Of a DNA stretch of 64,000 nt, positions 131 through 34,268 are shown piece after piece. Under the pieces are notes generated by a model, which was given only the letters and a program-made list of their open reading frames with translations, ran no database searches and was not told where the DNA came from. The translations under genes and the position numbers were made by a program. Source of the stretch: Promethearchaeota archaeon (lineage in GTDB: Archaea; Asgardarchaeota; Lokiarchaeia; Sigyniarchaeales; SOKP01); the NCBI GenBank assembly GCA_029838195.1, contig JALGVJ010000024.1:1-64000 (forward strand), read 5' to 3'. Within the stretch, counting starts at the first letter, position 1. Every line of letters starts with the position of its first letter.

Positions 131-325
131 ATATTCTCCATTTTTTTTAGCGTGCTCCCTAACTTTTTTTAAAGATATTTAGAGTATGCCATTTTTTTTA
201 TTTTTAGAGGAAAAAAAATTTGAATGATAGATATCTTATAAAGTCAAGAAATTAAATAAAATAATGCCCTCAAAAAGGTTCCGATGATAAAGGCTATAAA
301 ACTTTCAACTTTTTAAGAAAAAGAG

Positions 326-434
326 GGCCCGGTACGGGAATTGAACCCGTCTCTAGGGATTTCTGCTCTGTTCAATTGCTCATTCTAAAAAATGATTCAC
401 AGTCCCCAATACTAACCACTATACTAACCGGGCC
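326..434 (-). tRNA. tRNA-His (GTG) with a 36-nt intron at 361-396 (after position 37)
   Basis: Acceptor GCCCGGT/ACCGGGC, encoded G-1 and C73 discriminator (His identity), T arm ACGGG-TTCAATT-CCCGT, anticodon stem GGGGA/TCCCT, loop CTGTGA|A. BHB: central CUGU:GCAG, bulges GA|A and AA|A. Confidence 0.95.
361..396 (-). other. BHB-type tRNA intron (36 nt)
   Basis: Removal restores a 7-nt anticodon loop and 5-bp stem; 4-bp central helix with 3-nt bulges. Confidence 0.9.
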
Positions 435-31256: not shown

Positions 31257-31882
31257 CTACTTTTCTCCCTCCTTTAATTTATTAAGAAATTCTTGAGCCT
31301 CTTTTTTTCCCAATTCAAATGCTTCTAAATTCTTTTCCAAAGCTGATTTGGGAACAAATTCTTTAATTGTCTCTATAGCGGCCTCCTCAGAAAAAAGCCC
31401 GGAGAGAACGGTAAACGCTCCAAACAAGATGGTGTTGCCATATACCCGATCCCCGAACTTTTCTAACGCCATTTTCTGAACCGGAATCGCCAACGATTTT
31501 ACTCGTGCCGCTGTCTTGAACTTGCTTATCGTGGAAGGATCCCATAATAAAAATCCCGTATCTTTTCCCTTCTTTAACTGATTTTTTTTGACATCTTTCG
31601 CCGCCTCCTCAGATAAAATGATCAAAAAATCATAGGGCTCCAAGGCTTTTGGATAATCTATGAGTTTTGTTTCCCTATCTCTATCCACCACGACCTCAGC
31701 CCAACATTTTCCTCCCCGTGCAGATGCTGAATAAGCTTCTGTTTGCGTGGCAGCCAAGCCCTCGTGGATAGCACTTGCCATGGTGATCATCTTCGAGAGG
31801 GTGATAACGCCATAGTCTTTAAGAGGATATCTCTTTAAATTTGACCACCAAACCCGGAAATCCTAATCTCATATCTGTCCAT
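31257..31882 (-). CDS. korC: 2-oxoacid:ferredoxin oxidoreductase gamma subunit (KorC-type), interrupted by a 29-nt BHB intron (31812-31840)
   Basis: Upstream MDRYEIRISGFGGQ joins GVITLSKMITMASAIHEGLAATQTEAYSASARGGKCWAEVV; ATG at 31882 follows the korB stop at 31888. Confidence 0.9.
31812..31840 (-). other. Putative BHB intron in a protein-coding gene (29 nt)
   Basis: mRNA GGUC-AA|A-UUUAAAGAG-AUAUC-CUCUUAAA-GACU-AU|G: 8-bp inner helix with one bulged A, GGUC:GACU central helix, 3-nt bulges; unspliced reading hits UAA two codons after the junction. Confidence 0.85.
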
Positions 31883-31887
31883 GGTAT

Positions 31888-32799
31888 TTACCTCATCGCT
31901 ATTTCTTGAATTTTTCTATATTCTTCAGAATATTCAGGTTTATCTGGTTCGTAGCGAAATTCTCCAATGACATACTTGTTAAACAACTCTTTTTCGGTCA
32001 TGAACTTGGCTTGATTAATCCGAACCGAATTTCGCTTGATCCAGTCCATCATGATGCCTGCTCGATCCATCTTCACGCCTTTTTCTCCTACATCCTCCGC
32101 TCCTAAACTGCTCAAGTTTTTTCTGCCAAAATACGTAACGCATGGCGTGATTATTTCGATGACTGACGTGCCTTTATGTCGCAAGGCCTTTTTAAAATAT
32201 TTCATGAAAGTACGGGGATGAGCCACGGTTGTTCGGGCCACGTACGTTGCTCCTGCGGCCAATGCCAATTGCACGCCATCGCTTCTATTTTCAAACATCT
32301 TGTAAGGCGTGGTGGTGCTATTAGCACCATAAAGGGTTGTAGGAGCTCCCTGCCCGCCCGTCATGGCATAAATGCTGTTGTTAAAGATGAATAAAATCGC
32401 ATCCAAATTTCGACGGCATAAGTGAATGAAATGATTTCCTCCAATTCCCAAGCAATCTCCATCACCGGAAAATATGATCGGCTTCAATTTCGGGTTTGCC
32501 ATCTTAATACCCGTGGCAATCGCCGGCGCTCTACCATGTAATGTTAAGATTTTTTGAGCGGCATGATGCACGATTAACATTATTTGTGAATAACAGCCAA
32601 TTCCTACAACTAATGGATATAATCTGGGATCTAATTTCTCATCCTCAAACACGCGGGTATAAATTTGCCCAATTATGCCATAACCGCATCCTGCACAAAA
32701 TCTAGTGGTAAAATTCCCAAAAAGCTTGCCCCCATAAGATGAAGTTAAATAGGGATGTTCAGGCTTCTCGTTTGGAAGCATCTGGCCAATCTCACTCAT
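31888..32799 (-). CDS. korB: 2-oxoacid:ferredoxin oxidoreductase beta subunit (TPP)
   Basis: FCAGCGYGIIGQ, FSGDGDCLGIGGNHFIHLCRRN, IFNNSIYAMTGGQ. Confidence 0.93.
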   Translation of the reverse strand: MSEIGQMLPNEKPEHPYLTSSYGGKLFGNFTTRFCAGCGYGIIGQIYTRVFEDEKLDPRLYPLVVGIGCYSQIMLIVHHAAQKILTLHGRAPAIATGIKMANPKLKPIIFSGDGDCLGIGGNHFIHLCRRNLDAILFIFNNSIYAMTGGQGAPTTLYGANSTTTPYKMFENRSDGVQLALAAGATYVARTTVAHPRTFMKYFKKALRHKGTSVIEIITPCVTYFGRKNLSSLGAEDVGEKGVKMDRAGIMMDWIKRNSVRINQAKFMTEKELFNKYVIGEFRYEPDKPEYSEEYRKIQEIAMR

Positions 32800-32800
32800 T

Positions 32801-33976
32801 TTATTTTGCCACCTCTCTTATTGCATTTAATATATCATCTGGATGATGAAATTCGCATACTTTTGGTATTCTAATGATGGGAGTATCGGGATTAGTCACA
32901 CGCTCTACTTGTTCGGCAATGAATCCGGTATAATTCAATTCCGGAACGATTATCGCTTTGGCATCTTTTATAATCTCTCTAACTTTTTTGAGAGGAAAGG
33001 GCCACACAGTTATTAATCGTAGGATTCCCACTTTAATTCCTTCCTCTCTTGCGATATCCACGGCCCGATAGCTGGAGCGAACGGGAAGGCCATACGCAAC
33101 GATAATGATTTCAGCATCTTCCAGCTTGTAAGTATCCATTAAAGTAATATCGTCAATATTGCTATTGATTTTTTCCAATAGCATCTCTACAAATTGACCG
33201 GGCTTTGGAGTGGGCAATCCATCTGGCCCATGAGGTTGATGAATTAATAGGGAACTTCCGAATTTCGTGCCCATTTGAGAAGGAGGGGGAATGACATACT
33301 TTCCGGATTTAGGGTCCAGATATGAAAAGATTCGACCTCCGACTTCTTCTGGTACTTTTCTCTCCACCACGTGCTCTAAAATCTCTTTTTTGGAAGGTAT
33401 TTTCACTACTTCGTGCAAATGTCCTAAATACGCATCAGATACAATAAATACAGGACATCTATACAACTCGGCATAATTAAAAGCAGTAATGGTCAAATCA
33501 AACAATTCCTGGCAACTCATGGGAGCAATGGCAATAACCTGAAATTCTCCATTACCGGCAAAGCGCATGAGCCCAAGATCATTATGATGAGGCTCCGTCA
33601 CGAAGCCCGTACCGGGTCCATTTCGCTGCACGTCACAAAACACGAACGGGACTTCTAAATTTGCCGCCATGGATATCGTTTCGGTCATTAAACTCAAACC
33701 TGGCCCAGATGTCGCCGTCATGGCTTTTGCTCCCACTAATGACGCACCAATCACGGCATTAATGGATGCCAATTCATCTTCCATTTGCATGCAACATCCT
33801 CCTACTTGCGGTAATCGCATGGCTAAATGCTCTATTACTTCAGTACTCGGAGTAATCGGATATCCGCCAAAAAATTTCAATCCTGCGGAAATGGCTCCTT
33901 CTGCCATGGCAACATTCCCCATCATGAGATATTTTCCTTCCGGTAAAAACCTTTTTCCATTATCTTCTTCACTCAT
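32801..33976 (-). CDS. korA: 2-oxoacid:ferredoxin oxidoreductase alpha subunit
   Basis: MAEGAISAGLKFFGGYPITPSTEVIEHLA…TATSGPGLSLMTE. Confidence 0.93.
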   Translation of the reverse strand: MSEEDNGKRFLPEGKYLMMGNVAMAEGAISAGLKFFGGYPITPSTEVIEHLAMRLPQVGGCCMQMEDELASINAVIGASLVGAKAMTATSGPGLSLMTETISMAANLEVPFVFCDVQRNGPGTGFVTEPHHNDLGLMRFAGNGEFQVIAIAPMSCQELFDLTITAFNYAELYRCPVFIVSDAYLGHLHEVVKIPSKKEILEHVVERKVPEEVGGRIFSYLDPKSGKYVIPPPSQMGTKFGSSLLIHQPHGPDGLPTPKPGQFVEMLLEKINSNIDDITLMDTYKLEDAEIIIVAYGLPVRSSYRAVDIAREEGIKVGILRLITVWPFPLKKVREIIKDAKAIIVPELNYTGFIAEQVERVTNPDTPIIRIPKVCEFHHPDDILNAIREVAK

Positions 33977-33986
33977 GTTATCCCTC

Positions 33987-34268
33987 CTAAGTTTTGGCTT
34001 TTTTAGCTTCTACCGATGATAATTGGCTTTCATCTAAAATATAAATTGCCCAATCAGGACATCCAAATTCACATCGACGGCATGCTGTACAATATTTTTC
34101 TTTTCCCTCTTTCACTTTCGGAATAAACGATACTCTCATGTTAAGCTCATCGCTCATTTCCAAGATTCCCGTGGGACAGAGCGTCACGCACGATTCGCAA
34201 CCTCCGCAGCGGTTCTTATTCAAGAAGAGGACAAAATGTTTTTCTTTATTTTCGATTAATTTTGGCAC
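33987..34268 (-). CDS. korD: 2-oxoacid:ferredoxin oxidoreductase delta subunit, 2x[4Fe-4S]
   Basis: RCGGCESCVTLCP…YCTACRRCEFGCPDWAI. Confidence 0.9.
   Translation of the reverse strand: MPKLIENKEKHFVLFLNKNRCGGCESCVTLCPTGILEMSDELNMRVSFIPKVKEGKEKYCTACRRCEFGCPDWAIYILDESQLSSVEAKKAKT

Follow-up and report, generated by a model that had tools for sequence, protein, structure and literature searches.

The window, a 64-kb stretch of DNA, corresponds to contig C90 in a metagenome-assembled genome of 4.5 Mb (G000), the closest named kin of which within its family are Lokiarchaeia. It carries a kor operon on its minus strand. The gene order is korD-korA-korB-korC (34268 to 31257), with a korD-like ferredoxin gene (33987..34268; 93 aa), korA (32801..33976; 391 aa), and an intact korB (31888..32799; 303 aa) upstream of korC, and a 608-aa FrhB-like/flavin reductase protein encoded after it. 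korC begins at ATG 31882, and its first 14 codons (exon 1, 31841..31882, minus strand; ATGGACAGATATGAGATTAGGATTTCCGGGTTTGGTGGTCAA, encoding MDRYEIRISGFGGQ) lead into a 29-nt phase 0 insert (31812..31840, minus strand; ATTTAAAGAGATATCCTCTTAAAGACTAT) with an in-frame TAA at 31837..31835, such that the unspliced frame reads ATT TAA after exon 1. The remainder (exon 2, 31257..31811, minus strand) runs from GVITLSKMITMASAIHEG to the stop codon and encodes the gamma subunit of a 2-oxoacid:ferredoxin oxidoreductase, with a match to PF01558 and with NF006323 as the best NCBIfam match. Start codon and insert lie where a preliminary description of this DNA had placed them, on a strand that it left unstated.

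Removal of the 29 nt joins the exons as GGU-CAA-GGC-GUU, encoding GGQGV, and exactly regains GGQGVITLSK in KorC (joined product, MDRYEIRISGFGGQGVITLSK...; expected junction-spanning peptide, ISGFGGQGVITLSK). That excision repairs both the frame and the GGQGV start, as had been claimed, is borne out by the Pfam POR score: the joined protein reaches 93.9 bits (from residue 12), compared to 77.4 bits for the 177-aa open reading frame (ORF) that opens at ATG 31790 without a GxGGQG start, and it is this missing N terminus that joining the exons adds. We also looked for a second intact korC, which had been named as a finding that would speak against splicing. Exon 2 has one match at E <= 1e-20 in the genome, and none of the further PF01558/POR-domain proteins encoded there reach that level.

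The insert and its borders fit an archaeal bulge-helix-bulge (BHB) motif in the register GGUC-AA|A-[inner stem]-GACU-AU|G, just as the preliminary description had drawn it. All on the minus strand, a 4-bp central helix with one G-U pair joins exon GGUC (31843..31846) to intron GACU (31814..31817; 4/4 pairs); 3-nt bulges lie on both sides, AA|A (31840..31842; predicted 5' cut, 31841|31840) and AU|G (31811..31813; predicted 3' cut, 31812|31811); and an inner stem of 8 bp, in which a single A is bulged, pairs UUUAAAGAG (31831..31839) with CUCUUAAA (31818..31825). Calling the BHB positions canonical, as was done at the outset, is slightly generous given an outer helix that is weak, at 2 bp, which makes this a relaxed motif. 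A group I or group II intron core finds no room here, 29 nt being far too short, and the sole Rfam match in the window is a tRNA.

How much weight can the fold bear? Central and inner helices of this quality were reached in about 1 of 2,000 letter shuffles of the korC intron (p = 0.0005). The folding energies of 59- and 81-nt korC RNAs are no better than those of dinucleotide shuffles (z = -0.62 and +0.77), and in the minimum-energy fold of the isolated RNA the central helix runs on through the 3' bulge (GUGGUC:GACUAU), thereby closing it. With a 2-bp outer helix, an ordinary fold, and a closed 3' bulge, the korC intron would need an EndA that accepts relaxed motifs. A homology-free scan of the window for BHB-plus-frame candidates likewise gave no excess over register-shifted controls; as such matches occur at chance rate, BHB shape by itself proves nothing, and homology-based scanning took the place of this approach. 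Structure alone therefore cannot carry the intron claim, while comparative evidence does.

Gene-wise alignment of 105 korC loci, most of them intact, shows inserts in a minority and at three sites, with lengths of 29 or 30 nt at codon 14, 30 nt at codon 46, and 31 nt at codon 42. The insert-bearing loci are L009, L019, L027, L065, L067, L070, L072, L075, L128/129, and L131/132, with L137, L138, and L139 as three added cases; about 90 further relatives carry no insert. All of the inserts disrupt the frame or hold a stop, and each is excised exactly if the bulges are cut between their second and third nucleotides. The comparison with relatives proposed in the preliminary description yields removable BHB inserts of 29 to 31 nt at all three sites. 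The 29-nt type recurs at the window's codon in L019, L072, L128/L129, L138, and L139, and two korC introns apiece are found in L019, L027, L065, L072, and L128. The intron splits a Gly codon (G|GC) in L027, L065, and L075, while site 2 splits an Arg codon (AG|A); translation tricks cannot restore a residue encoded in this way, which needs joined RNA. The korB genes of two metagenome contigs (L125 and L126) also hold a 30-nt BHB intron, with CACG:CGTG in one pairing and CGCG:.GCG in the other. Shorter "introns" of 15 to 18 nt in the gene-wise output were rejected, being mostly ordinary in-frame insertions or assembly gaps. Separately, the sequence upstream of korC in the intron-rich loci L019, L027, and L128 is unrelated to the usual korB neighbor, which means that either korC was relocated or its operon underwent rearrangement.

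The central and inner helices of the korC introns covary, in part with synonymous exon changes. At site 1, 4 of 12 pairs are changed on both sides and 80.6% of cells are paired, versus 40 to 50% with slid partners, and at site 2 the corresponding values are 3 of 19 pairs and 93.9% versus 20 to 48%, each site being represented by six distinct sequences, among which kinship alone can beat shuffles without structure. The paired variants at site 1 illustrate the pattern, GGU-CAA occurring with GACU and GGA-CAA with GUUU: because the central helix takes in exon wobble positions, exon and intron change together. Pairing varies in extent, with just two to three central pairs in the site 1 homologues L072 and L128, and with a 4-nt 3' bulge in the fold of site 2. 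That other species have an insert at this very codon, different in sequence but covarying, lends support to the BHB intron first proposed from the window alone, and the comparative evidence argues strongly for an intron that can be spliced.

To look beyond the kor genes, an unbiased all-versus-all scan was run on 2.26 Mb from three Lokiarchaeal genomes (1.26 Mb from the window's own genome, 0.80 Mb from G015, and 0.20 Mb from G013). Among 41 frame-disrupting inserts, the top four BHB scores belong to korC, CooS, a winged-helix gene, and an AAA ATPase gene, and these four also have the strongest two-flank homology, bar one 20-nt exception. The latter (G015:C7:714-1012; L267) is frame disrupting, has strong homology on both sides, and is not BHB-like. 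The homologous stretches compared amount to ~0.95 Mb, which corresponds to about one intron for every 240 kb of the coding sequence covered. In 695 kb of related loci, the inserts that break the frame and have strong flanks all proved to be BHB introns already found.

The CooS gene (Pfam Prismane/CODH) holds a 32-nt canonical BHB intron with a perfect 6-bp outer helix at codon 566 (G015:C6:396802-396833, in L299; joined product, VAAAPEY|MEQK), and a table entry, the sole source for this case, has CooS split at the identical residue in G023, from another genus. In the window's own genome, a second mRNA BHB intron, 30 nt long (G000:C72:148432-148461, in L231) and with the outer helix GGTGG:CCACC, interrupts the gene of a MoxR-type AAA ATPase within its Walker A motif (GGHGGGK|TT). 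The outer helix is thus in the 5- to 6-bp class in CooS, the AAA ATPase, and korC site 2. The third gene, encoding a winged-helix protein, has a 30-nt BHB intron in G013 (L198:11657-11686, contig C101); it is located just upstream of rtcB both there and in the window's genome, where the copy is intact. Tables for 82 genomes, in which candidates appear as entries only (an insert of ~30 nt with one stop, or a gene split at an identical residue), suggest more introns of this class: for the winged-helix gene, a +30-nt insert containing a stop is listed in G008, G021, and G056 and a split in G011, and the AAA gene has +33 nt with a stop in G037 and G038. The korC case, seen alone in the preliminary description, belongs to a class of introns.

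Lokiarchaeal introns are found in phases 0, 1, and 2, with phase 1 or 2 at korC site 1 (30-nt type), korC sites 2 and 3, korB, and the winged-helix gene. This bears on translational bypassing, in which ribosomes would hop over the 29-nt hairpin, as occurs in phage T4 gene 60 and at the byp elements of yeast mitochondria. A short hairpin insert with an early stop codon, the removal of which restores the protein, would be in keeping with such hopping. Bypassing, however, works in phase 0 only, and the residues of codons split by phase 1 and 2 introns, such as AG|A, can come only from joined RNA; it further needs matching take-off and landing codons, which here are CAA and TAT in korC and TAT and CCA in CooS; and it leaves aside a central helix formed between exon and intron in precisely the register that EndA uses. 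We consider it highly improbable.

Very little also speaks for a broken or two-piece gene, in which exon 1 would be a defunct stub of 14 codons and KorC would be made in shortened form from ATG 31790. While the 177-aa ORF retains a match to most of POR, the frame of exon 1 is preserved, and relative to close intronless relatives its 8 to 12 codon changes entail just 1 to 3 amino acid changes. GGQGV is 96 to 100% conserved across ~100 korC loci, the exon-intron pairing is maintained, and the introns at CooS codon 566 and in the AAA Walker A motif would be left unexplained. A pseudogene reading of korC was rejected along with the other alternatives. All of the sequences are metagenome assembled or metagenomic, which would invite an artefact of sequencing, assembly, or binning, yet identical sites and architecture, with diverged and covarying sequences, come from independent projects (SDNM01, SDNY01, and several JGI metagenomes), so that error, judged unlikely from the start, can be given almost no credence. 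Hairpin-like mini mobile DNA elements left in the RNA, with hosts tolerating truncated enzymes, would account for patchy presence among sister alleles and for altered exon flanks, which resemble mobility, but are scarcely believable given that the inserts of different genes lack an obvious common sequence, that the pairing always takes in exon, and that the hosts are conserved enzymes struck at conserved motifs, korC among them without a second copy at E <= 1e-20.

The enzymes for BHB splicing are encoded in the genome. An EndA alpha subunit of 203 aa has Aeropyrum pernix EndA as its closest match (3p1z; E = 6e-36), and its INKPR aligns with VEKPR of A. pernix, that is, with K44-P45-R46 of the crenarchaea-specific loop that has been tied to a broad EndA substrate range (PMC12397907). 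An EndA beta-like subunit without the catalytic His is present as well, as is the exon ligase RtcB. Judged by these sequences, the host EndA set, with separate alpha and beta subunits, appears to be of the broad-specificity (alpha-beta)2 kind and would suit relaxed motifs. There is also a third, partial EndA-like match (G000:C53:22042-22209; 109-aa frame). Fourteen distinct intron-bearing tRNAs were called in the genome, and the central 4-bp helix is fully paired in 11 of them. One of these features lies in the window itself, a tRNA-Tyr(GTA) gene (325..433, minus strand) in which a 36-nt intron, with a CTGT:GCAG central helix and a 6-bp outer helix, occupies the canonical position, and which ARAGORN overlooked in its default mode without the intron option.

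We conclude that the korC pre-mRNA very probably holds a 29-nt archaeal BHB intron that is spliced by the tRNA-splicing enzymes. EndA alpha/beta would cleave the RNA in both 3-nt bulges, each time behind the second nucleotide (31841|31840 and 31812|31811), and RtcB would then join the exons, giving GGU-CAA-GGC-GUU and, upon translation of the spliced message, GGQGV. The korC intron would be one of a set of 29- to 32-nt BHB introns scattered through Lokiarchaeal protein genes, with korC (three sites), korB, CooS, the MoxR-type AAA ATPase, and the winged-helix protein as putative members. Such short introns seem to come and go quickly, apparently at times replacing the flanking exon.

The distribution of the korC introns is patchy. 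Mapped onto the korC tree, the introns require seven changes between presence and absence, and supported branches force at least four of these. The codon 42 intron of L131 is absent from its 92.6% identical sister L076, with identity falling to 72% beside the site. Away from site 1, L027 and L019 share 99% identity, which falls to 71% within eight codons of the site (p = 2.7e-11), while L027 agrees in intron type and in its flanks with L065 and L075, two distant alleles to which it is 92% identical near the site and 68 to 74% identical far from it. As L019 and L027 differ upstream of korC as well, a single 5' recombination could possibly explain the contrast between them. In the intronless pair L010 and L066, identity is 70 to 75% over ~80 nt exactly at site 1, with surroundings of 85 to 100%; this dip may be the scar of intron loss by local replacement, and in other intronless control pairs dips are weaker or absent. 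Patchy introns with seemingly coconverted exon flanks suggest recent gain, loss, and exchange by recombination, the inferences of exchange being drawn from few allele pairs, and the comparative evidence on how the introns spread is of moderate strength. A bolder reading, to which we lend slightly less than even credence, is that Lokiarchaeia harbor minimal BHB introns in protein genes as an actively spreading class. These would pass between lineages on short recombination tracts that bring the exon flanks with them and recode them, and they would be tolerated thanks to their removal by a broad-specificity EndA, so that the archaeal lineage that is sister to eukaryotes would have an intron dynamic dependent on splicing.

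Lokiarchaeia are related to the archaeal ancestor of eukaryotes, and introns in archaeal protein genes have so far been seen as a curiosity of crenarchaeal cbf5. If mRNA BHB introns are recurrent in Lokiarchaeia, gene finders will miss or truncate conserved enzymes there, as with the split CooS and the split Walker A motif of the AAA ATPase, and central metabolism would depend on tRNA-splicing enzymes. There would then be routine protein-based splicing of mRNA in the archaeal lineage near eukaryotes, unrelated to the spliceosome and with quick gain and loss of introns. The literature searched, with subscription papers and preprints outside its coverage, held no report of mRNA introns in Asgard archaea.

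Several known systems invite comparison. Among Asgard archaea, Atabeyarchaeia and Freyarchaeia have abundant tRNA introns, and that report, where it treats introns, mentions tRNA genes alone (PMC11291895). Archaeal tRNA introns, these included, share the BHB motif and presumably the enzymes with the inserts studied here, and the tRNAs of the window's genome have them too; the Lokiarchaeal inserts, in contrast, sit in mRNAs, where codons take part in the pairing with the intron. In Haloferax, the HVO_1309 mRNA is cut by EndA, being described as a processing substrate identified via EndA knockdown in a 2020 study that counts "one mRNA" besides its own (PMC7714728). The Lokiarchaeal inserts are likewise predicted to make an mRNA an EndA substrate but, unlike HVO_1309, break the reading frame and must go for protein to be made. 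The rRNA introns of Thermoproteales (PMC4496867) are similarly patchy among relatives; those introns reside in rRNA, however, and the Lokiarchaeal inserts, at 29 to 32 nt, are far too short for a homing endonuclease. The established archaeal mRNA introns are those in the cbf5 pre-mRNA of Crenarchaeota (Desulfurococcales and Sulfolobales) (PMC2738675), a family to which the korC intron, by its host gene, does not belong. Both have a BHB in a protein gene with the cut, predicted in our case, between the second and third bulge residues, and both combine relaxed motifs with a hetero-oligomeric EndA, lineage-specific loss, and common descent at one site. Whereas the cbf5 introns occupy one gene in hyperthermophilic Crenarchaeota, the introns described here are found in a Lokiarchaeal (Asgard) host, in several unrelated genes and at several sites per gene, and they are much patchier, with signs of exchange together with their exon flanks.
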